A program made the position numbers and the translations under genes. From a virus, in IMG/VR virus record IMGVR_UViG_3300036780_000171, positions 1-64,000 of that record: 64,000 nt of DNA. One strand, given 5' to 3'. The notes beneath the pieces are model-generated. The model was given only the letters and a program-made list of their open reading frames with translations, did not search any database and had not been told where the DNA came from. Position 1 is the first letter of the stretch. Every line of letters starts with the position of its first letter. Below, piece by piece: positions 23,101-38,323 of the stretch.

Positions 23101-23129
23101 TTGATAATTTTACACTCGTGCTATATAAT
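23101..23129 (+). promoter_or_regulatory. Promoter of plus-strand tRNA operon
   Basis: TTGATA (23101-23106), 17-bp spacer containing CTCGTGC, TATAAT (23124-23129). The ATG of the leader peptide at 23136 lies at the expected transcription start. The 20 nt from the -10 onward are identical to those of the promoter at 25355 on the other strand. Confidence 0.85.
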
Positions 23130-23133
23130 AAAA

Positions 23134-23255
23134 ATATGGCTAAACTAAACGTATTATCAAGTTCGTTTTATCTCTTGGAAACTCCAGAGGTCTATTAGCC
23201 ATATGCTAACTTGGTACGAGAATAAAACCTCTGGAATTTAACCAGAGGTTTTTTT
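23134..23255 (+). promoter_or_regulatory. Attenuator of plus-strand tRNA operon
   Basis: A terminator stem (ACCTCTGG 23227-23234 with CCAGAGGT 23242-23249, then a T-run) precedes the first tRNA. A second copy of CCAGAGGT (23184-23191), inside the leader frame, can pair with the same ACCTCTGG and block the terminator. A 10-bp stem (23134-23143 with 23195-23204) closes the leader. By analogy with trp-type attenuation, a ribosome reaching the stop would cover the antiterminator and allow termination; stalling at Leu/Ser/Phe/Tyr codons would permit read-through. Confidence 0.7.
23136..23198 (+). CDS. tRNA-operon leader peptide
   Basis: A 20-codon reading frame starting at the predicted transcription start. 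Residues 4-14 read LNVLSSSFYLL. Codons include CTA, TTA, TCA, AGT, TTT, TAT and TTG, exactly one or more codon for each of the seven tRNAs downstream (Leu UAG, Leu UAA, Ser UGA, Ser GCU, Phe GAA, Tyr GUA, Leu CAA). Codons 17-19 (CCA GAG GTC) form the antiterminator segment. Interpreted as a regulatory leader peptide, not a functional protein. Confidence 0.7.
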   Translation: MAKLNVLSSSFYLLETPEVY

Positions 23256-23264
23256 AATACCTAA

Positions 23265-23339
23265 TGCCTTGTAGCTCAACAGTAGAGCATCGGCCCGAAG
23301 AACCGAGTGTAGTGGGGGCAGCACCCACCGAGGCAACCA
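23265..23339 (+). tRNA. tRNA-Phe-like (GAA), non-canonical loops
   Basis: 75 nt with encoded CCA. Acceptor TGCCTTG/CGAGGCA, D stem GCTC/GAGC, anticodon stem TCGGC/ACCGA (last pair C-A) and loop CCGAAGA giving anticodon GAA. The usual U33 is C. The T-loop is GGCAGCA, not TTCRANY, and the D-loop AACAGTA lacks the GG pair. The tRNA-Pro at 25070 shares these oddities. Confidence 0.7.
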
Positions 23340-23342
23340 TAA

Positions 23343-23430
23343 TCGGGAGCGGCGAAGATGGCGAGTCGCAGCAGTCTGTAAAACTGTTGTCCTTGTGGCT
23401 AAATAGGTTCGAATCCTATCTCCCGAACCA
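23343..23430 (+). tRNA. tRNA-Tyr (GUA)
   Basis: 88 nt, CCA encoded. Acceptor TCGGGAG/CTCCCGA, anticodon loop CTGTAAA, a long variable arm as expected for bacterial tRNA-Tyr, canonical T-loop TTCGAAT. Confidence 0.92.
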
Positions 23431-23431
23431 T

Positions 23432-23509
23432 GCTCATGTGGCGCAACTGGTAGACGCAAACGGCTCAAACCCGTTCCAACTACAGGTTCGAATCCTGTCA
23501 TGAGTACCA
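23432..23509 (+). tRNA. tRNA-Leu (CAA), short variable loop
   Basis: 78 nt, CCA encoded. Anticodon loop CTCAAAC reads TTG. The variable region is only about 6 nt, unlike normal bacterial tRNA-Leu with a long arm. Confidence 0.85.
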
Positions 23510-23510
23510 A

Positions 23511-23587
23511 GCCCCGGTGACGGAACTGGCATACGTACTTGGCTTAGAACCAAGGTTTTAGGGGTTCGACTCCCCTCTGGGGTACCA
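23511..23587 (+). tRNA. tRNA-Leu (UAG), short variable loop
   Basis: 77 nt, CCA encoded. Acceptor GCCCCGG/CTGGGGT, anticodon loop CTTAGAA reads CTA. Variable loop only 5 nt (GTTTT), again short for tRNA-Leu. Confidence 0.85.
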
Positions 23588-23593
23588 ATTTAT

Positions 23594-23677
23594 GCGTCGT
23601 TGGCGGAACAGGTATACGCAGTCGGCTTAAACCCGATGCCGCAAGGTTTACTGGTTCGAATCCAGTACGGCGTACCA
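23594..23677 (+). tRNA. tRNA-Leu (UAA)
   Basis: 84 nt, CCA encoded. Acceptor GCGTCGT/ACGGCGT, anticodon loop CTTAAAC reads TTA; a 12-nt variable arm fits class II tRNA. Confidence 0.9.
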
Positions 23678-23683
23678 AAATAT

Positions 23684-23771
23684 GGAGGGTCGCAAGGCTG
23701 GCGTGCTTATCGGTTTTGAAAACCGTGATGGGGTAAAACCTGTGGGGAATCGTTCTCTCCACCCTCCGCCA
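23684..23771 (+). tRNA. tRNA-Ser (UGA)
   Basis: 88 nt, CCA encoded. Acceptor GGAGGGT/ACCCTCC, anticodon loop TTTGAAA, long variable arm. The T-loop ATCGTTC swaps the usual T54 and A58. Confidence 0.85.
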
Positions 23772-23797: not shown

Positions 23798-23883
23798 GGT
23801 GAGTGAACTGGTTGGGAATCAGCTTTGTTTGCTAAACAAATGGCACCGCAAGGTGTGAGTGTCGGGAACTCCGCTCACCGCCA
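23798..23883 (+). tRNA. tRNA-Ser (GCU)
   Basis: 86 nt, CCA encoded. Acceptor GGTGAGT/GCTCACC, anticodon loop TTGCTAA, variable arm with a CACC/GGTG hairpin. T-loop GTCGGGA and the first T-stem pair are irregular. Confidence 0.82.
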
Positions 23884-24050: not shown

Positions 24051-24169
24051 TGCAACTACTCTTAGTTGCAGGGTGAGTCATGGGGTGGCCTTTTGAAAAA
24101 ACCACTTGCGTTGAACTGAAACGAGCTTTTATCGACCGGGGCTTGGTAGCAGGAAGCAAGTGGTTTTTT
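24051..24169 (+). ncRNA. Structured small RNA candidate
   Basis: About 120 nt from the predicted start to a T-run. A 5' hairpin (TGCAACTA/TTAGTTGCA region) begins at the first base. A perfect 14-bp stem (24096-24109 with 24156-24169) encloses 46 nt and ends in TTTTTT. No known RNA family recognised. It lies between the two convergent tRNA operons. Confidence 0.45.
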
Positions 24170-24179
24170 CATGGCAAAG

Positions 24180-24210
24180 AAAAAAGGCCAGATTTTCGCT
24201 GGCCTTTTTT
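24180..24210. terminator. Bidirectional terminator between tRNA operons
   Basis: AGGCCAG and CTGGCCT form a 7-bp stem flanked by A6 and T6, so it can end transcripts from both directions where the convergent operons meet. Confidence 0.75.
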
Positions 24211-24229
24211 ACTCACATATAAGATTCTC

Positions 24230-24305
24230 TGGTTGCGGGAACACGAGAGTTGAACTCGCTTAAGAAGCCTTATGAGAGCTTCGAGATACCGACCTGCCGC
24301 CCGCA
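24230..24305 (-). tRNA. tRNA-Met-like (CAU), degenerate
   Basis: 76 nt with encoded CCA. Anticodon stem AAGCT/GGCTT and loop CTCATAA give CAU; T-arm GCGAG/CTCGT with loop TTCAACT is good. The D-arm is weak and the acceptor pairs over six positions only, with two extra bases on the 3' side. It could be elongator Met, initiator or a lysidine-type Ile tRNA. Confidence 0.6.
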
Positions 24306-24322
24306 TTATTAATTATATCATA

Positions 24323-24397
24323 TGGTTCAGGTGCTTGGATTCGAACCAAGATTGCGTGAGTCAAAGTCACGAGTCCTACCTATTAGACGACTCCTGA
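24323..24397 (-). tRNA. tRNA-Gln (UUG)
   Basis: 75 nt, CCA encoded. Anticodon stem CGTGA/TCACG, loop CTTTGAC. T-loop TTCGAAT. One A-A mismatch in the acceptor stem. Confidence 0.88.
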
Positions 24398-24398
24398 T

Positions 24399-24475
24399 TG
24401 GTTGGCGAGGTTGGATTCGAACCAACGAATTACCAAGTTCAGAGCTTGGAGCCTTACCAGCTTGGCCACTCGCCA
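24399..24475 (-). tRNA. tRNA-Gln (CUG)
   Basis: 77 nt, CCA encoded. Acceptor TGGCGAG/CTCGCCA, anticodon stem CCAAG/CTTGG, loop CTCTGAA. Fully regular cloverleaf. Confidence 0.93.
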
Positions 24476-24547
24476 TGGTACACCTAGTCGGATTTGAACC
24501 GAACATCAAGGCTTAGAACACCTTTTCACCTGTCCTGGGCTGGGTGC
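24476..24547 (-). tRNA. tRNA-Arg (UCU)
   Basis: 72 nt, CCA encoded. Anticodon stem AAGGT/GCCTT, loop GTTCTAA. The D-arm is short and poorly paired, and the acceptor has one C-A mismatch. Confidence 0.75.
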
Positions 24548-24548
24548 T

Positions 24549-24623
24549 TGGAGGGCTAGGAGAATTTCGAAATCTCGACTGCCGCATTAAGAGTGCGGTT
24601 CTCTGCCTCTGAGTTACTAGCCC
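24549..24623 (-). tRNA. tRNA-Lys (CUU)
   Basis: 75 nt, CCA encoded. Acceptor GGGCTAG/CTAGCCC, anticodon stem CCGCA/TGCGG, loop CTCTTAA. Most of it overlaps, on the same strand, the 3' end of the HNH reading frame at 24556-25029. Confidence 0.9.
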
Positions 24624-25029
24624 GTTTTCTGCGCCCAGTACGCCAGCGATATTTATTCTGACTATCTGCCGAAGCTCTCTTACAAGCATTACATCGACAG
24701 CCATATTTATATCCTGTATATGTACCATGGATTAAATGTCGTTTTCTTCTTCCAGCTAACCTACCTTTACGAGAAGCATCTTGCATATTGTCAGCGCGTG
24801 TACCAAGAAATAAATGGCTAGGGTTTACGCATATCTTATTGTCACATTTATGGCATACATCAATTCCTTTGGGTATATCCCCGTTAGAAATAATCCATGA
24901 AACACGATGTGTGTCAATAACTTTTTTGCCGACTTTAAAACAGCCATAGCCATTTTTAGTACGTCTTGCGGCCATCCATAGCCAGCAATTGCTAGATTTA
25001 TCGACTTTAAGCCAAAAACGCTTCTCCAT
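24556..25029 (-). CDS. HNH endonuclease running into tRNA-Lys
   Basis: 157 residues. HNH core: [49 protein letters not shown] basic Cys segment follows ([13 protein letters not shown]). About the last 22 residues are translated from the tRNA-Lys sequence, so the true C-terminus is set by the insertion site. It has its own promoter, and divides the minus tRNA operon into Trp-Pro and Lys-Arg-Gln-Gln-Met. Confidence 0.87.
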
Positions 25030-25037
25030 TGGTCGTC

Positions 25038-25066
25038 ATTATAGCACGAACCTTTTTAATGTACAA
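25038..25066 (-). promoter_or_regulatory. Promoter of HNH gene in tRNA array
   Basis: TTGTAC (25066-25061), 17-bp spacer ending CGTGC, TATAAT (25043-25038); the ATG is 9 bp downstream. It starts 4 bp after tRNA-Pro. Confidence 0.7.
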
Positions 25067-25069
25067 TAT

Positions 25070-25145
25070 TGGTCAGGGTTGCAGGCTTTGCTCCCGCCGC
25101 CTCTGAGTCCCAAACCCAGCGCTCTACTAAATGAGCTAAACCCTG
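25070..25145 (-). tRNA. tRNA-Pro (UGG), non-canonical loops
   Basis: 76 nt, CCA encoded. Acceptor CAGGGTT/AACCCTG starts with the C1-G72 pair typical of tRNA-Pro. Anticodon loop TTTGGGA. The T-loop is AGCAAAG and the D-loop ATTTAGTA, lacking the TTC and GG signatures, as in the Phe-like tRNA at 23265. Confidence 0.75.
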
Positions 25146-25148
25146 ATA

Positions 25149-25219
25149 TGGCACCGGTGTAAGGGTTCGAACCTCATCTCGCAGTTTTGGAGGCTGCTAC
25201 GCTCCTAAGCGTCACCGAT
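25149..25219 (-). tRNA. tRNA-Trp (CCA)
   Basis: 71 nt, ends GCCA. Acceptor ATCGGTG/CACCGGT, anticodon loop CTCCAAA, T-loop TTCGAAC. Short D-arm. The first tRNA of the minus operon; reads only TGG. Confidence 0.85.
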
Positions 25220-25221
25220 AC

Positions 25222-25348
25222 GAAAAAACCGCCCTTGTGTAGGCGGTTTCCTTTGCTATGTTAAGAATTCTGACTATGCTAAGAAACCACCCGTGCTAAT
25301 CGGATTATCGTGCTTCCACACGCGGACTGGTTTACATATGTTAGCCAT
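25222..25348 (-). promoter_or_regulatory. Attenuator of minus-strand tRNA operon
   Basis: Terminator stem AAACCGCC (25249-25242) with GGCGGTTT (25233-25226) and a T6 run lies just before tRNA-Trp. GGTGGTTTC (25291-25283), inside the leader frame, can pair with GAAACCGCC (25250-25242) with one G-U pair and so exclude the terminator. Start-region GCTAA can pair with TTAGC near the leader stop, as in the other operon. Same design as 23134-23255. Confidence 0.65.
25274..25348 (-). CDS. tRNA-operon leader peptide
   Basis: 24-codon frame starting at the predicted transcription start. Residues 6-12 read KPVRVWK, with CCA, TGG and AAG matching the operon's tRNA-Pro, tRNA-Trp and tRNA-Lys; the Arg codon (CGC) is not read by the Arg UCU tRNA and no Gln codon is present. 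The antiterminator lies in codons 20-22. Regulatory role inferred. Confidence 0.6.
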   Translation of the reverse strand: MANICKPVRVWKHDNPISTGGFLA

Positions 25349-25354
25349 ATTTTT

Positions 25355-25383
25355 ATTATATGGTAGTGAATAAAAAAAATCAA
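25355..25383 (-). promoter_or_regulatory. Promoter of minus-strand tRNA operon
   Basis: TTGATT (25383-25378), 17 bp, TATAAT (25360-25355), directly after the terminase stop codon. From the -10 on, 20 nt match the promoter at 23124. Confidence 0.8.
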
Positions 25384-30407: not shown

Positions 30408-30530
30408 CTATTGGAATGACGTAAATATTGATGTAGCAGCGCCGACAAAAATAAGTGCAAAAAATAGAATAATGCCGACAATTAGCGCGGCAAATATTAA
30501 GTTATTTAGATTATATTTAAGCTTTACCAT
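30408..30530 (-). CDS. 40-residue single-TM protein
   Basis: One long hydrophobic helix (LIFAALIVGIILFFALIFVG). The ATG lies inside the 3' end of the folE fusion gene; no clear RBS. Function unknown. Confidence 0.45.
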   Translation of the reverse strand: MVKLKYNLNNLIFAALIVGIILFFALIFVGAATSIFTSFQ

Positions 30531-31599
30531 TAATAAATGAAATCCATTCCTGGCGTGTAGCCAGCTGCTCCTTAAATGCCCCGAGTAAATGAGCTGTAGT
30601 GACTTCTTGACCATCTTGTTTGACCCCACGCATAACCATACAATAGTGCCTGCCCTTGATAGATACTGCTACTCCTTTTGGTTCTAGGTTACTATAAATT
30701 GCGTTTGCAAGATGAACAGTCAGCTGTTCCTGGAGAATAGGTTGACGACCGAGTAGTTCAGCTATCCTTGTAAACTTAGATAACCCCATAACTGACCCGT
30801 CAGGAATATATGCTAACGCAATGCTATAGTCAACTGGCAATAAATGATGCGGGCATAAACTATAGACCTTTATATTTGTGAATACTATCATCTCATCATT
30901 GTCACAAGGGAATTTTGACTTGAAAATTGCTTCTATTTCTTGCTTGGCTTTTGGCTTGTTACCTTCAAATAACTCCTGATACATTCTGGCAACCCGCAGC
31001 GGAGTTTCTTTAAAATCAGGTTCATCAAGGTTGACGCCTAGAGACTTAAGAATCTTCGCAATGTAGTTCTCAACGGTAGCTAAACCAGCAAAGTGACCAC
31101 TTGTTTTGCCGACTTCATTATGTATTTTTGAATGGTCTGGACGACATAAAATAATTAGGTTGGAAGTATCATTATTCCATTTCCTACCGTCAAGATGATG
31201 CACGATTAAGTCAAAGCCATCAACTGGTTCTCCACATCTTTGACAAAACTTACCACGTTCTTTAATAATAATTTTTTTGGCGATAATAAAAGAATCTTTG
31301 GTTAAGCTTTCTTTTATCTTTTCTATCTGTTCGGCCGTCTTTGGATATTTACCGCTTTTTTGTCTTAATTCTATTTGTTTCTGGTCTTGCATTTGTCTGG
31401 TAGCAAGCTCACTTTTTAGTTGTCTCAGCTTAGGGGTATATGATTTCTTAATAATATTGCTATGGTCTTGATAGCGACAAGTAACCGAACAATAAATTCC
31501 TTTTTGCATACTAGGGTAATACTCAAACTTTTTGTCGCAAACTAGACAAGTTGCAGTTTTTTTGGCACCATTTTTGCTGCTTTGGTTATTTTTTACCAT
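30517..31599 (-). CDS. folE: HNH endonuclease-GTP cyclohydrolase I fusion
   Basis: 360 residues. Residues 1-45: Cys finger (CLVCDKKF, YCSVTCRYQ). About 115-165: HNH core (CQRCGEPV, LIVHHLDGRKWNNDTSN, CRPDHSKIH). About 172-360: a complete FolE (ETPLRVARMYQELFEG, SLCPHHLLPVDY, GLSKFTRIAE, HYCMVMRG), with zinc and GTP residues present. FolE makes dihydroneopterin triphosphate, the first step to preQ0. No start codon is visible at the join, so FolE is probably made only as the fusion. Confidence 0.88.
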   Translation of the reverse strand: MVKNNQSSKNGAKKTATCLVCDKKFEYYPSMQKGIYCSVTCRYQDHSNIIKKSYTPKLRQLKSELATRQMQDQKQIELRQKSGKYPKTAEQIEKIKESLTKDSFIIAKKIIIKERGKFCQRCGEPVDGFDLIVHHLDGRKWNNDTSNLIILCRPDHSKIHNEVGKTSGHFAGLATVENYIAKILKSLGVNLDEPDFKETPLRVARMYQELFEGNKPKAKQEIEAIFKSKFPCDNDEMIVFTNIKVYSLCPHHLLPVDYSIALAYIPDGSVMGLSKFTRIAELLGRQPILQEQLTVHLANAIYSNLEPKGVAVSIKGRHYCMVMRGVKQDGQEVTTAHLLGAFKEQLATRQEWISFINGKA

Positions 31600-31605
31600 G
31601 TATTT

Positions 31606-31634
31606 ATTATATATTACTAAAAAGATAAGTACAA
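31606..31634 (-). promoter_or_regulatory. Promoter of HNH-folE
   Basis: TTGTAC (31634-31629), 17 bp, TATAAT (31611-31606); ATG 7 bp downstream, so leaderless. It starts just beyond the queE stop. Confidence 0.7.
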
Positions 31635-31637
31635 ACT

Positions 31638-32411
31638 CTATGTGCCTCTCACGTCTCCGAATAGCGCGATATGCAGCCTGCCGGAGAGATTAAAGCCGTG
31701 CTCGATACAAAAGTCCACTAATTGGCGTTGACCCGACTGGATTTTTTCAGCCGTGCGGCCTTCGGGCATCAGAAAGACGCGCTGTGGCGGTATGTCATAC
31801 TTGTCCACCAGGCTAAGCGCTTCTTCCAGGTCATGGTAGGTTGAGATAACAAACTTAAAGTCGGCTTGCGGCAACGCGACAAAGGCTTCCATGGCACGCG
31901 GTTTGTCGCGTTTCTTCGGGTAGTTGCCGGAATTTTCGAGCTTGGGGCTGACGTTAAATTGGCCAACCCTGGCCGCCAGCTCAGGTTTTGGGGCAATGGT
32001 GCCGTTGGTTTCAATCTCAGTGGCAAACGACGGGTCACGCTGCCACACTTTGTCTATAAGGTCGACTATGCGGCCTTGTTGGAGAAGCGGCTCGCCGCCA
32101 GTCACTATTAACCGGCGTGGGGCTTTGGCCACCACTATATCAGCTACGGCGTCGGTATCCAGGCTCATTTCTTCGGCCGCACGGCGGAATATGCGATTGT
32201 CGTCGTGTGGTGCGCTTTCGGCAGCGCTATTCTCAAACCGCCATGTTTCTGGCACATCGCACCACGAACATGTCAAGTTGCAACCGCTCAAGCGCACGAA
32301 CGTTGAAGGCTCGCCAGCGTGTCGACCTTCGCCCTGGATAGTATCGAATATCTGTGGTAGCTCCGAGCCGCTTTCCATACGCGAAAGCGTTAGGTCGACA
32401 ACTTCGCTCAT
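31638..32411 (-). CDS. queE: 7-carboxy-7-deazaguanine synthase-like (QueE)
   Basis: 257 residues. Radical-SAM cluster motif GCNLTCSWCD (CX3CX2C), preceded by DTIQGEGRHAGEPSTFVRL and followed by IVTGGEPLLQQ. QueE converts carboxytetrahydropterin to CDG. An insertion of about 35 residues after the cluster motif (ENSAAESAPHDDN region) is longer than in many QueE. ATGA overlap with the membrane gene upstream. Confidence 0.88.
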   Translation of the reverse strand: MSEVVDLTLSRMESGSELPQIFDTIQGEGRHAGEPSTFVRLSGCNLTCSWCDVPETWRFENSAAESAPHDDNRIFRRAAEEMSLDTDAVADIVVAKAPRRLIVTGGEPLLQQGRIVDLIDKVWQRDPSFATEIETNGTIAPKPELAARVGQFNVSPKLENSGNYPKKRDKPRAMEAFVALPQADFKFVISTYHDLEEALSLVDKYDIPPQRVFLMPEGRTAEKIQSGQRQLVDFCIEHGFNLSGRLHIALFGDVRGT

Positions 32412-32569
32412 ACGAGTTCCTCGAAGATACCAAGTATTTCAGCCACGATAAGCAAAATGCCAGCCCATACCAGCCATGCTAGATGTAACGTTGTTACAAC
32501 CCCGACAAGTGAGATACCTGCTAGGATTCGAATAAGCGACTTTGCCAGACTAATATTTTTATGATTCAT
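32408..32569 (-). CDS. 53-residue two-TM protein
   Basis: Two hydrophobic stretches (LIRILAGISLVGVVTTL; AWLVWAGILLIVAEILGIF). It overlaps queD and queE at its two ends. No motif; conserved role unlikely to be base synthesis itself. Confidence 0.5.
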   Translation of the reverse strand: MNHKNISLAKSLIRILAGISLVGVVTTLHLAWLVWAGILLIVAEILGIFEELV

Positions 32570-32942
32570 AAGTAACCTCGGCATAGCTGGTATCGGTTTC
32601 GTATAGTTTTATATGGGTAACTTCAACTCTATCATTATTAATTCGCTCGCTAAACTCTTTAAAAAGCAACATGCTAATGTTTTCGGCCGATGTCTGTATG
32701 CCGAGACTTATATTCAAATCTTGATGGTCGTATTTTGGTTCCAGCTCTTTCCAGAATGCTTTGACAAGACCGAAATCTTCTACAAAACCTACCTTACTGA
32801 CTTGTACATCTTGCCGTAAGCTTACGGTGACAAACAATTTGTAATTATGGCCATGTTGGTTCTTGCACTTGCCCTCGTAACCATTGCCGAGATGATGAGC
32901 TGCACTAAAACTAAATTCTTTGGTTATACTCTGTTTTAACAT
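32559..32942 (-). CDS. queD: 6-carboxytetrahydropterin synthase (QueD)
   Basis: 127 residues. Zinc His ligands in FSAAHHL and HGHNY, the catalytic Cys in KCKNQHGH, plus DHQDLN and TSAENIS of the family. It converts dihydroneopterin triphosphate to carboxytetrahydropterin. First of the preQ0 genes on the transcript. Confidence 0.92.
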   Translation of the reverse strand: MLKQSITKEFSFSAAHHLGNGYEGKCKNQHGHNYKLFVTVSLRQDVQVSKVGFVEDFGLVKAFWKELEPKYDHQDLNISLGIQTSAENISMLLFKEFSERINNDRVEVTHIKLYETDTSYAEVTYES

Positions 32943-34881: not shown

Positions 34882-35311
34882 AATTTTTAATTTCCTGTAG
34901 TTCTATATCCATTGCTTGGCGAGCCAACTTCGGATTACGTTCAGCATTAGCCAGAACACCTTGATAGCCGGTTTCCATCATAAATCGAAAAACTGATTGA
35001 ATATCCAAAATAATGCCGTAATAGGTGGCTGGCATAATAATATCTGCACCCTTTTCAGTAGCCCGCCAGGTTGGGTCAAGCGCATGTTCGCCGTCAGTTA
35101 GCCATGCGTGCAATATCCAATGCTTTTTGCTAGAAGGCTTGGCATAGCCTTCTACATACTTATACTTTGGAAAACAGGCCATTGCTTGCATAATACAGGT
35201 ATCGAAACATTGACCGACTTCGCCGCGTTGGATATCTTCTGGTAGTAATGCCGACTCATAGTATCTCGCGCCAAGTTGTTGCAATTGCTTAAATTCCCAT
35301 TCGTCAGTCAT
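34847..35311 (-). CDS. Transglutaminase/cysteine-peptidase-like protein
   Basis: 154 residues. GEVGQCFDTC, HWILHAWLTDG and HALDPTW supply Cys, His and Asp in the order of a papain/transgl-core triad. Similar small proteins occur in phages. Substrate unknown. Confidence 0.55.
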   Translation of the reverse strand: MTDEWEFKQLQQLGARYYESALLPEDIQRGEVGQCFDTCIMQAMACFPKYKYVEGYAKPSSKKHWILHAWLTDGEHALDPTWRATEKGADIIMPATYYGIILDIQSVFRFMMETGYQGVLANAERNPKLARQAMDIELQEIKNFADKGLYARTY

Positions 35312-35313
35312 GC

Positions 35314-36048
35314 TTAGCCTTTCAATCTAAATACTGCCGACTCATTAAAACGTCGCTCAATTTCAAAACCAAGTTGTACTAGCACCTGTGCTTCTTCGCT
35401 GATATGCACTAATCCGTGACCACTTACCAGATAAATGCCATATAGCGAAAATAGGCCGCCACGTTTTAGTACATGCTTTACTTGCTTATAGAATAGTAGT
35501 CGTTCATTTCTATCCATAAGACCAATGACAGCCGAGCTGCTAACCGCATCAACGGTTTTGCGTTTTAGTGGTATCTTCTCGCATAAATCGGCACAAATAA
35601 ACTCGCTATCGAAATTGTATTTGTGCCAGCCTTGGCTATGCTCAATAAGGTCGACCGCATAGGCTTTATCATAGCCAAGCAGCAATGCCACGTCAGCATC
35701 GCAGCTATCGCCACAACCGGCATCAAGAAATATGCCACCATCGACTTTCTGGCTACTAAGTGAACCATGGAATAGCTGGCGCATGGCCGTACTCATGATG
35801 TAATTGATACTCTTGTAGCGATTAGGGCTATGCATATTATTCTCGACTGTGCATTGTGGTTCTGGATAATAACCGGATTTCCAATAAAACTCATAGTGGC
35901 GACGGCGTTCACCGCCTTTTGCCCGTATTTTGCTTAACATGAGCTTCATGCGTTCGGGGTCTTTGCGATTCCACTTAATGGGTTCATTGACGAAAATTTG
36001 GAAATTTCCTATGTTAACTGGTTTCATATCTACTGTTAAACTAATCAT
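35314..36048 (-). CDS. Class I SAM-dependent methyltransferase
   Basis: 244 residues. Motif I FLDAGCGDSCDADVALLLG, motif II CADLCEKIP and VLKRGGLFSLYG. The N-terminal third is unusual. No target-specific motif, so protein, small-molecule or RNA substrates are all possible. ATGA overlap with the gene upstream. Confidence 0.7.
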   Translation of the reverse strand: MISLTVDMKPVNIGNFQIFVNEPIKWNRKDPERMKLMLSKIRAKGGERRRHYEFYWKSGYYPEPQCTVENNMHSPNRYKSINYIMSTAMRQLFHGSLSSQKVDGGIFLDAGCGDSCDADVALLLGYDKAYAVDLIEHSQGWHKYNFDSEFICADLCEKIPLKRKTVDAVSSSAVIGLMDRNERLLFYKQVKHVLKRGGLFSLYGIYLVSGHGLVHISEEAQVLVQLGFEIERRFNESAVFRLKG

Positions 36049-36176
36049 ATTTTAAATGTCCTATTACACTTTTGACACTGCAGTTTATTCCAGCCGGTAA
36101 CTTCCAGCATCCTGCCATAGCAGTCAGGACAGCGATAGCCGAGAAAAATCATTAATCTGCGCCATAAATATATCAT
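36045..36176 (-). CDS. 43-residue zinc-ribbon protein
   Basis: CPDC and CQKC pairs 20 residues apart form a zinc ribbon. ATGA-linked on both sides. Function unknown. Confidence 0.5.
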   Translation of the reverse strand: MIYLWRRLMIFLGYRCPDCYGRMLEVTGWNKLQCQKCNRTFKI

Positions 36177-36316
36177 TTCTTTTTACCCAATAGACTACTG
36201 ATTATGAAATACGGATAAATCTTGCCGTTACTTCGCACTCTGGCACGCAAGCGGCCATTGCCAATACTCGCATATGGCTTTAGGCCTTTTGGTGATAGAT
36301 AAAACCCAAATCTCAT
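36173..36316 (-). CDS. 47-residue basic protein
   Basis: Short, beta-rich and basic (GNGRLRARVRSNGK). ATGA-linked on both sides, which is the reason for keeping it. Resembles the small DUF4236-like proteins that start FYLSPKG but this is tentative. Confidence 0.5.
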   Translation of the reverse strand: MRFGFYLSPKGLKPYASIGNGRLRARVRSNGKIYPYFIISSLLGKKK

Positions 36317-36537
36317 GACTTTATCTCCGGTGGTAACATGCCATTTTTACGTAACTCTTGGGTTATGGCTTCCTCGGTTTTACCATATAAAATAATTACT
36401 TCGTGGCTTTCCAGCCCTAACTCATCAAGTGCAAAATATATTGGTTTGCCTTGTTTCAGCCGTTCAATATTGCCGTCGCTCAAACCAAAGCCAAAAACAG
36501 TTATGCCATTCTTTCTTTTTGCTTGAAACTTTATCAT
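36313..36537 (-). CDS. Small hypothetical protein
   Basis: 74 residues (KFQAKRKNGITVFGFGLS). Start chosen at the ATGA overlap with the upstream gene, four codons after another ATG. Not recognised. Confidence 0.5.
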   Translation of the reverse strand: MIKFQAKRKNGITVFGFGLSDGNIERLKQGKPIYFALDELGLESHEVIILYGKTEEAITQELRKNGMLPPEIKS

Positions 36538-36773
36538 GGCTTGCTCCATGTCAAATCTTCGTAGTCAGTCGCTGCCGCAGTATACCTATCGTAATGGTCA
36601 ATTTTGGCATTATTGCCATTAGCATAAACAACGAAAGCTAACTTGCTTTGATTCTTAAAACTCTTAATACGACCACGTTCCCATTGCTTAGGGTCATCAA
36701 TAGCATGTAGTGGTATGTAATAAATGGTCTTGCCAATATCCTGCTCGGTTAGTTTGGTAATTGGCTTACCCAT
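36534..36773 (-). CDS. Small hypothetical protein, SH3-like pattern
   Basis: 79 residues. GKTIYYIPLHAIDD, ERGRIKSF and AFVVYANG strands suggest a small beta-barrel. The start is the ATG overlapping the upstream stop. Function unknown. Confidence 0.5.
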   Translation of the reverse strand: MGKPITKLTEQDIGKTIYYIPLHAIDDPKQWERGRIKSFKNQSKLAFVVYANGNNAKIDHYDRYTAAATDYEDLTWSKP

Positions 36774-37317
36774 TGGTAGCCTCGCAATATGGATTTGGCT
36801 TGCCGCTAATAGGGTCTGGTTCACAACTGCCTATTTTTAATAGTGTACCAGTGGCCGACCACTCATTTCCCCACAAGTCATATTGTGGCCGGTTTGGGTC
36901 AGTACAATTCTCATAGCACTTATTGGTGCTGGTCACCGGCGCATCTTTGTCAAGCGCACCATTCGGGTTAAACTCGCAGACATCATTGCCCGTGTTGCCG
37001 ACACATGTGCCGCTGGTATTGTGTGATGTGCTAGTAACCGGCTTTGCTGGTATAGTGGACTTTACCACTGGCTTTGGTGCTGGCACAGCAGGTGTGACAG
37101 TCGCTGAACTTGCCTTGTATGTTGGGGTTGGAGCTGGCTTGCTAGGATGAGTCACGGGTTTAGTAGGTTTATTATCACTTATTTGTATATCGGGCTTGGA
37201 GCTGGTTAGTGTAACAGGGGCAAGCTTATTGGTATTTGATAAACTAACAAGGCTGGCAGCTATGGTCACCAGTGAAAATAGTATCAAGCGTTTCATGATT
37301 TTTTTAATCCCGCTCAT
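36766..37317 (-). CDS. Secreted Pro/Thr-rich protein with Cys end
   Basis: 183 residues. N-terminal signal peptide (KKIMKRLILFSLVTIAASLV), a Pro/Lys/Thr-rich linker, and a C-terminal Cys-bearing region (CVGNTGNDVCEF, CYENCTDP, CEPDPISG). Exported or surface-exposed after synthesis. ATGA-linked to the gene upstream. Confidence 0.6.
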   Translation of the reverse strand: MSGIKKIMKRLILFSLVTIAASLVSLSNTNKLAPVTLTSSKPDIQISDNKPTKPVTHPSKPAPTPTYKASSATVTPAVPAPKPVVKSTIPAKPVTSTSHNTSGTCVGNTGNDVCEFNPNGALDKDAPVTSTNKCYENCTDPNRPQYDLWGNEWSATGTLLKIGSCEPDPISGKPNPYCEATNG

Positions 37318-38144
37318 AGTTCTTCCAAAAACTTCACTTCCTTATCCCACGCGCCAAGAATTTGCCAGAAAAATCCGAATGGCGACTGCGCCAGTAAGAT
37401 TGGGTCACGACGTCTTGTTACATCAGTAGTCTTGGCTTTCTCTACTATTAAGTAATAGTTGGTTTTCTGGTCACATAACTTGTCGGTCAGCTTTTCATAC
37501 CTGGCAATTTCCTTCACGGCCTCTTTTGGTAAGTCTGGAATAAGCGTAGCGATATTCTCGGCCTTAAGATGGGTATGCGCGTTTAGAACGGCTGCTATGG
37601 CCTCGCTGGTGGTATATGGCCAGTCGTTATAGCCATCTTTAAATGATTCATATTGCCTTCTATTTTCAAGCCTGATAAGCATCGAACACATTTCCTGATA
37701 GGCATATTTGTAAACGCCGGTCATGTCACTACTATCACGGACTTCCCAGGCATCGGCTATATGGCCGCCGAGCGCTTTTGGCAGCTTAACTTTCTGAGCC
37801 CTTGGTTTCTTGGGAATAAGTAGCTCTATCTTTTGCTTTAGTACGATGAGCTGTTCGTCAAGGTAGTCTGGGCGGCAGTTAATTGCCATTTTGGGGATAG
37901 TCAAGGTGCCTAACTCGTAGATTTCCTTGGGAGTCAGTTCCGGCAATTTCTTTTTGGAAGGCTGCTTTTTCTTTTTGGTGATTCCACTTACCTCGCTGCC
38001 GCTATAATCCAGGTCGGCTATCTGAACATAGTCACCATAATCCATGGTAGTTGAAGTACCTTTTAAAATACCATGCTGGGCAAAATCGTATAATCTGCTT
38101 TCTTTCTGCTGCTCAAATAGCTTATGTCCAAATATTTTTATCAT
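37314..38144 (-). CDS. Hypothetical protein
   Basis: 276 residues, a lysine-rich segment near 58-70 (KKKKQPSKKK) and helical C-terminal two-thirds. No domain recognised. ATGA-linked to both neighbours. Confidence 0.6.
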   Translation of the reverse strand: MIKIFGHKLFEQQKESRLYDFAQHGILKGTSTTMDYGDYVQIADLDYSGSEVSGITKKKKQPSKKKLPELTPKEIYELGTLTIPKMAINCRPDYLDEQLIVLKQKIELLIPKKPRAQKVKLPKALGGHIADAWEVRDSSDMTGVYKYAYQEMCSMLIRLENRRQYESFKDGYNDWPYTTSEAIAAVLNAHTHLKAENIATLIPDLPKEAVKEIARYEKLTDKLCDQKTNYYLIVEKAKTTDVTRRRDPILLAQSPFGFFWQILGAWDKEVKFLEEL

Positions 38145-38323
38145 TGTTTTTCCTTTTTATGTAGAATAATCAGCTCCGTGGTAATAATGGCACCAAGCAA
38201 AAATCCTATGCCGACTTGCCAGCCAATGAAAATTGCCAGAAATAATGTGACTGACACGACCAATACAATGTAATGTGCTGCTTTATTTACCTGTTCGTCA
38301 TTCTTCATTGTTTTCATCTTCAT
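38141..38323 (-). CDS. Two-TM membrane protein
   Basis: 60 residues with two hydrophobic segments (HYIVLVVSVTLFLAIFIG; GFLLGAIITTELIIL) and charged ends. Start uncertain: in-frame ATGs also lie at 38317 and 38308. Function unknown. Confidence 0.5.
   Translation of the reverse strand: MKMKTMKNDEQVNKAAHYIVLVVSVTLFLAIFIGWQVGIGFLLGAIITTELIILHKKEKQ

Follow-up and report, generated by a model that had tools for sequence, protein, structure and literature searches.

Leader Peptides with Matching Codons in Front of Phage tRNA Arrays: Sequence Evidence for Probable Multivalent Transcription Attenuators

Results

The window analyzed in this work comprises 64,000 nucleotides (positions 1 to 64,000) of the virus record IMGVR_UViG_3300036780_000171, which has a total length of 83,461 bp. 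Two convergent tRNA arrays are found there, each behind a promoter, a short leaderless reading frame and an intrinsic terminator (Table 1). Promoters and terminators were assigned by consensus matches and are inferred from sequence alone.

Table 1. Features of the two leaders and their tRNA arrays in the window.
Feature	Position	Strand	Sequence and basis
Promoter of leader 1	23101..23129	+	TTGATA-17-TATAAT; 11/12 consensus match
Leader peptide ORF 1, leaderless, 20 codons	23136..23198	+	MAKLNVLSSSFYLLETPEVY-stop; read from sequence
Possible 1:2 hairpin	23170..23191	+	ATCTCTTGG ... CCAGAGGT; MFE fold
Region 2 of leader 1, antiterminator 5' arm, in last codons of ORF 1	23183..23191	+	TCCAGAGGT
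Region 3 of leader 1, partner of either region 2 (antiterminator) or region 4 (terminator)	23227..23235	+	ACCTCTGGA
Intrinsic terminator of leader 1	23224..23256	+	11-bp stem, -14.8 kcal/mol, T run
tRNA-Phe (GAA)	23265..23336	+	Rfam RF00005, 39.2 bits; anticodon from sequence
tRNA-Tyr (GTA)	23343..23430	+	Rfam/ARAGORN
tRNA-Leu (CAA)	23432..23509	+	Rfam/ARAGORN
tRNA-Leu (TAG)	23511..23587	+	Rfam/ARAGORN
tRNA-Leu (TAA)	23594..23677	+	Rfam/ARAGORN
tRNA-Ser (TGA)	23684..23771	+	By eye; tRNA-Sec model 26.4 bits, below cut-off
tRNA-Ser (GCT)	23798..23883	+	By eye: acceptor GGTGAGT/GCTCACC, anticodon arm TTTGT-TTGCTAA-ACAAA; not called by Rfam/ARAGORN
Second tRNA array: Trp, Pro, HNH gene, Lys, probable Arg, Gln, Gln, Met	24234..25221	-	
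Intrinsic terminator of leader 2	25223..25249	-	AAACCGCC TACACAA GGGCGGTTTTTT
Region 3 of leader 2	25241..25252	-	AGGAAACCGCCT
Region 2 of leader 2, at ORF end	25281..25292	-	GGGTGGTTTCTT
Leader peptide ORF 2, leaderless	25274..25348	-	MANICKPVRVWKHDNPISTGGFLA-stop; read from sequence
Promoter of leader 2	25355..25383	-	TTGATT-17-TATAAT; consensus match

The ATG of leader 1 at 23136 starts 7 bases past the end of the -10 box, with its A at the predicted +1; the transcript would therefore be leaderless. Genes of the form TATAAT-N6-ATG are common elsewhere in this genome, and hence such a start is normal here. Leu, Ser, Phe and Tyr, the amino acids of array 1, account for 10/19 sense codons of leader 1, and with CTA, TTA, TTG, TCA, AGT, TTT and TAT a decodable codon is available for each of the seven tRNAs. 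Among 19-codon windows of this phage's own ORFs, ten or more codons for these four amino acids occur in 0.7%, and all seven tRNAs are served in 0.02-0.04%. The tRNA-Phe of array 1 apparently carries C at anticodon-loop position 33 and not the near-universal U.

The switch elements of leader 1 rest on a repeated sequence. CCAGAGGT is present at 23184 and again at 23242, where it forms region 4 and is followed by T7, while ACCTCTGG occurs a single time in the window, at 23227. The terminator hairpin itself spans 23224-23252, followed by Ts. In silico, the antiterminator (2:3) excludes the terminator (3:4), and 3 of 2000 dinucleotide shuffles offered the terminator arm a helix equal in strength to TCCAGAGGT/ACCTCTGGA. 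Taken by itself, the fold contrast of leader 1 is unexceptional, being equalled by 5/40 shuffles. An additional ATGGCTAA/TTAGCCAT pairing is present in the region, and as long as the leader is free of ribosomes the 1:2 hairpin might keep region 2 sequestered. The original prediction had placed here a promoter, a 20-codon frame at the start site, a terminator before the first tRNA, a duplicate (23184 and 23242) able to pair with one and the same sequence, and a cognate codon for each of the seven tRNAs (three Leu, two Ser, Phe, Tyr). All of this held at the places named; the 1:2 hairpin, the ATGGCTAA/TTAGCCAT pairing and chiefly the second leader (25348-25274, minus strand) had been missed.

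Leader 2 follows the same plan. A 21-bp stretch (25361-25341, minus strand) is identical to the promoter and start region of leader 1; beyond the first dozen bases the sequences differ, and each leader has its own ORF and its own competing hairpins. The antiterminator helix of leader 2 has 12 bp and was matched in strength by 2 of 2000 shuffles. The last base of region 2 lies exactly 7 nt upstream of the last base of the stop codon in both leaders. Anticodons of array 2 are Trp CCA (subthreshold), Pro TGG, Lys CTT, Gln CTG, Gln TTG and Met CAT; the probable Arg (TCT) was read from sequence only. Leader 1 matches its own array in 10/19 codons (2/19 for array 2), leader 2 in 6/23 (3/23 for array 1). 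Leader 2 thus fits its array less well than leader 1, has no Gln codon, and covers 17 different amino acids among 24 codons.

Some neighboring features were recorded as well. The HNH endonuclease gene within array 2 lies at 24556-25029 of the window with a TATAAT near its ATG. A second HNH domain was found in one ORF together with a GTP cyclohydrolase-like domain (30517-31599), and at 30517-32942 a GTP cyclohydrolase-like gene adjoins a QueE-like and (by eye) a QueD-like one; they probably make up a 7-deazaguanine pathway that modifies DNA or tRNA. Between the convergent arrays (24090-24212), AAAAAGGCCAGCGAAAATCTGGCCTTTTTT and a long hairpin AAAAAACCACTTGC...GCAAGTGGTTTTTT are apparently bidirectional terminators.

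Relatives of the phage were sought by terminase and portal homology. Terminase relatives comprise viral contigs as well as contigs of Daviesbacteria, of another Patescibacteria bin and of a Pacearchaeota bin; a host among Patescibacteria is likely but not shown. In the closest relative (67% identity) terminase and portal adjoin. Within the records of 42 relatives, tRNA genes were confined to one virus record and two cellular bins, and the close relatives found via terminase and portal have no tRNA arrays. Conservation in relatives, named as a test in the original prediction, therefore had to be examined outside this lineage, and the codon match was found in other phages instead. The exact 20-mer TATAATAAAAATATGGCTAA, covering promoter and start, occurs in 10 viral contigs (among them L010, L012-L014, L016, L018 and L019), each time in front of an ordinary leaderless gene without tRNAs. 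The sequence common to both leaders is therefore not specific to tRNA arrays.

Viral contigs were scanned with a pattern blind to leader codons, which asked for a -10 box followed after 6 bases by ATG and, suitably spaced, for a T-run and the T-loop of a tRNA; afterwards, the ORF was required to end before the first tRNA. This yielded 41 different candidate leaders, 36 of them non-redundant (<60% mutual similarity). The fixed pattern defines the sample, and some of the phages are related and not fully independent. Several candidates (e.g. L220, L243, L285, L288) have no match or no terminator or seem to be unrelated. Many contain a Bacteroidota-type TATATTTG box according to our reading. Leaders and arrays correspond as follows: MIKFNEQQEDNQTE precedes Asn, Asp, Glu and Gln; MIKKMYYSFCFWFHVVNMT precedes Phe, Tyr, Trp and Cys; MNKQQLHQQPILIDTSQGGTGM precedes Pro, Gln, His and Met; MTNSVSYYEEEYNS precedes Glu and Tyr; and MKTLISNFNFDNDKP precedes Asp, Asn and Phe. 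An earlier pattern without the T-run was dropped, its matches being mostly mid-array sequence. A Shine-Dalgarno variant of the scan gave no convincing leader; either the class as detected is therefore leaderless, or other spacings were missed.

For the 36 leaders, 206 cognate codons were counted in front of their own arrays compared to 113.8±11.4 when the leaders were dealt to other arrays; 206 was not reached in any of 20000 permutations. Counted by amino acids of an array that occur in its own leader, the match was 107 compared to 64.1±5.2 (again 0/20000). Trp, for example, occurs in 6/6 leaders of Trp arrays but in 3/30 others, and Pro, His, Gln and Tyr behave alike. The match is confined to frame 0 of the ORF (z 8.1); none was seen in the other two frames, in the antisense frames or beyond the stop codon (z -1.2 to 0.3). 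We therefore argue that the codons are read by ribosomes rather than that tRNAs bind the RNA directly. By wobble rules 173/219 cognate codons are decodable by the array tRNAs, but only 15/34 for Leu. Isoacceptor-level specificity was considered and is not evident beyond amino-acid identity, and thus our claim is made for amino acids and not for single isoacceptors.

The fold switch was computed across the set for transcripts that stop in the terminator loop, with all RNA from the 5' end to 12 nt beyond the A site barred from pairing. The probability that the terminator 5' arm is sequestered is 0.71 with a mid-leader stall and 0.12 with a ribosome at the stop codon, a difference of 0.585 compared to 0.165 in shuffles (sd of the set mean 0.033). 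In 30/35 leaders this arm finds its best partner at the ORF end, in contrast to 37% in shuffles (p 4e-9), and the distance from stop codon to terminator arm is 20-30 nt in most leaders. A stall at nearly any upstream codon moves the predicted fold. Upstream of the computed switch point 182/479 codons are cognate (92.2±10.6 expected), whereas downstream no enrichment was seen (25/159, 21.3±3.9 expected). Here codon counts and computed fold, obtained independently of each other, agree. Confinement of cognate codons upstream of the switch is required by attenuation and is not predicted by the other explanations considered.

Two side observations concern the sequences of the set. L172, L211, L246 and L252 are related leaders (MLNTNLN.., MLKTNLL.., MLNVKLL.. 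and MMTHYVN..) that have diverged at the ORF end and the terminator arm; the pairing of these two is kept in L252 (GGGCCTGA/TCAGGCCC, stop codon included) and in L172 (CGGGGTT/AGCCCCG). Further, tRNAs within an array favor the same first codon base, with 106/200 pairs compared to 64.9±6.5 after shuffling in the 36 non-redundant loci; there are arrays consisting of UNN readers or of CNN readers only. Phage kinship may contribute to this trend, and a link to position-37 modification or nuclease specificity is conceivable.

Of the cultured phages, Cellulophaga phage phi38:1 carries its tRNAs in three groups, each preceded by a leader of its own; the region in question is at about 35,200-38,200 of NC_021796. 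MKTIMNIATDIRTKGVKLLGRSRVL precedes Lys, Ile, Gly, Met, Asp, Thr, Val and Arg; MKTNMTYNNFSWYSNCSFSSYNVERLYLS precedes Ser, Ser, Asn and Phe, together with Tyr (by eye) and Trp (as annotated in the relative Calle_2); and MNVTLLHQEPLEQLRLPSRVPYYGIDELS precedes Pro, Glu, Gln, His, Leu and Arg. Own-array matches are 18/24, 18/28 and 17/28, i.e. 53/80 codons, compared to 14-32 for the five other assignments, and this comparison within one genome is free of host or lineage effects. In Tenacibaculum phage Gundel_1, MKTKLYSYSCFSSWFKNRAG stands before a group with Phe, Ser and Ser (Tyr and Trp genes by eye). No such leader was found at the tRNA arrays of T4, Proteus phage Stubb (T5-like), Mesorhizobium phage Cp1R7A-A1 or crAss001. 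BLAST of three array regions against cultured phages returned only tRNA or endonuclease similarity, and a plasmid search nothing beyond short tRNA matches.

Discussion

The architecture, the match of codons and arrays, its frame specificity, its position relative to the fold switch and its recurrence are shown by sequence statistics. We consider it very likely, with a probability of roughly 0.9, that each tRNA array is under the control of a multivalent, ribosome-mediated transcription attenuator of the trp/his type. This reading is inferred from sequence alone, with no RNA, ribosome or reporter data. Those features of such an attenuator that can be judged from sequence are present: a short ORF lies between promoter and terminator, its codons are cognate to the regulated product, and, in silico, the hairpins are mutually exclusive and the 5' element of the antiterminator overlaps the ORF end (30/35 leaders of the set and both leaders of the window).

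In the proposed mechanism, RNA polymerase would begin at the A of the leaderless ATG with the ribosome behind it. A ribosome that reaches the stop codon would mask region 2, region 3 would pair with region 4, and transcription would terminate before the first tRNA. If any cognate tRNA is scarce (Leu, Ser, Phe or Tyr in leader 1), the ribosome would stall upstream and leave region 2 free; pairing of regions 2 and 3 would then prevent the terminator, and the whole array would be transcribed until the supply recovers. Such a circuit would act as an OR-gate feedback sensor of tRNA supply. The polarity, in which a stall means "on", follows from the fold. The original prediction had likewise proposed that stalling of the trp/his type turns the array on; this is supported by the set statistics, the frame and the switch position, with the response to tRNA supply remaining an inference. 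Translation of the leaders, the direction and size of the response, a rise of read-through under tRNA limitation and the trigger are inferred, too. Phage codon demand, amino-acid shortage and host tRNA cleavage are possible triggers.

The alternative that survives best is a general sensor of translation or ribosome availability, similar to ermC, in which any slowdown opens the array and codon identity is irrelevant. In its favor, leader 2 covers 17 amino acids, and the fold responds to a stall almost anywhere upstream. Against it, the match of leaders to their own arrays is far above permutation and the three leaders of phi38:1 fit three different arrays; we regard it as unlikely. Less probable still is a T-box-like sensing, in which uncharged tRNAs would bind the leader RNA and stabilize the antiterminator without translation. 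Similar target genes, the antiterminator/terminator logic and a UGGUAC stretch downstream of the leader 1 ORF speak for it. However, the codon match is strictly in the ORF frame and absent from other frames and strands, the distance from stop to terminator arm is narrow, and no T-box family match was obtained in the window, neither at gathering threshold nor at E<=1. It is equally hard to maintain that the response depends on the peptide product rather than on codon supply, e.g. through arrest of the translating ribosome or through an action in trans. Some known leader peptides do work in trans, e.g. peTrpL (PMC7298713), but the phage leader sequences vary freely apart from the array match. 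A fortuitous ORF before an ordinary terminator or a processing hairpin of the tRNA precursor, for which the abundance of short ORFs and the many hairpins in phage tRNA arrays could be quoted, is practically ruled out, as for the set it failed all the tests, namely those of permutation, frame, position and shuffling, and the design occurs twice in this genome.

Amino-acid operons such as trp and his (modelled in PMC1183508) and some synthetases (PMC2965389) are known to be controlled by leader-peptide attenuation. Like the trp and his attenuators, the multivalent attenuators proposed here have a short ORF in the leader, carry their regulatory codons ahead of the switch point, choose between 2:3 and 3:4 pairing and, as predicted, favor termination with a ribosome at the stop codon. 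The trp and his attenuators control biosynthetic enzymes, whereas the leaders described here are carried by phages, start leaderless, are multivalent and would control tRNA genes. They would work likewise but are not members of the amino-acid operon or synthetase attenuators, since tRNA genes follow and not biosynthesis or synthetase genes. The Phe leader (RF01859) and the his leader peptides before hisS paralogues (PMC2965389) also have codons matching the decoding machinery they regulate, although that is a synthetase or biosynthetic gene and not the tRNAs themselves. Leader 1 (23135-23258) matches RF01859 with 32.4 bits (E 0.0064), far below the gathering threshold of 55 bits, and hence does not meet the criterion for membership. 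T-box riboswitches sense the state of a tRNA by antitermination as well, but by direct RNA pairing with the tRNA, whereas the phage leaders match in the translated frame; neither a match to a T-box covariance model nor a tRNA match independent of a translated frame was obtained. Studies on phage tRNAs as counter-defense against tRNA-cleaving host systems (PMC10264068, PMC11555353) deal with the same cargo and a plausible need to replace depleted host tRNAs; they are, however, about the tRNAs and not about their control, and the main text of PMC10264068 contains neither "attenuat" nor "leader peptide". The open-access literature searched, which leaves most subscription journals uncovered, gave no report of a leader peptide in front of phage tRNA genes. 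To this extent the statement of the original prediction that no example is known for a phage tRNA array stands: attenuation by leader peptides is known, and its use on phage tRNA arrays is apparently undescribed in the open literature searched.

Codon compensation and replacement of host-destroyed tRNAs are the two sides of a decades-old debate on why phages carry tRNAs. A leader that lists the sensed amino acids would state what each array responds to, making the question testable in a cultured phage-host pair, and the tRNA losses a phage is prepared for could be predicted by sequence. Leader-peptide attenuation would be extended to tRNA genes, to multivalent sensing and to leaderless transcripts in phages that infect Bacteroidota and, probably, Patescibacteria; the leaders would represent natural single-transcript sensors of tRNA shortage.

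A bolder reading regards the arrays as a conditional, self-sensing rescue system, in which multivalent leaders would detect depletion of any array tRNA, e.g. by host anticodon nucleases, and switch on replacements, and in which the same circuit would autoregulate some chromosomal tRNA genes. We see no more reason to accept this reading than to reject it. The chromosomal part refers to a Patescibacteria genome in which a leader reading NNNRNNN precedes tRNA-Asn (L341; G323:C21:112560-112840, minus strand); this contig was the only one obtained from 380 genomes of the phylum to which the Daviesbacteria bin belongs. A relaxed scan of the taxonomic class of this genome gave no second convincing case. 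tRNA autoregulation of this kind perhaps exists beyond phages and would be rare in the form searched for. The leaderless frame in question, MKIKIFVNNNRNNNPLF-stop, contains six Asn codons and is followed by a terminator, and the tRNA-Asn adjoins a gene that by eye resembles CarD-type regulators.
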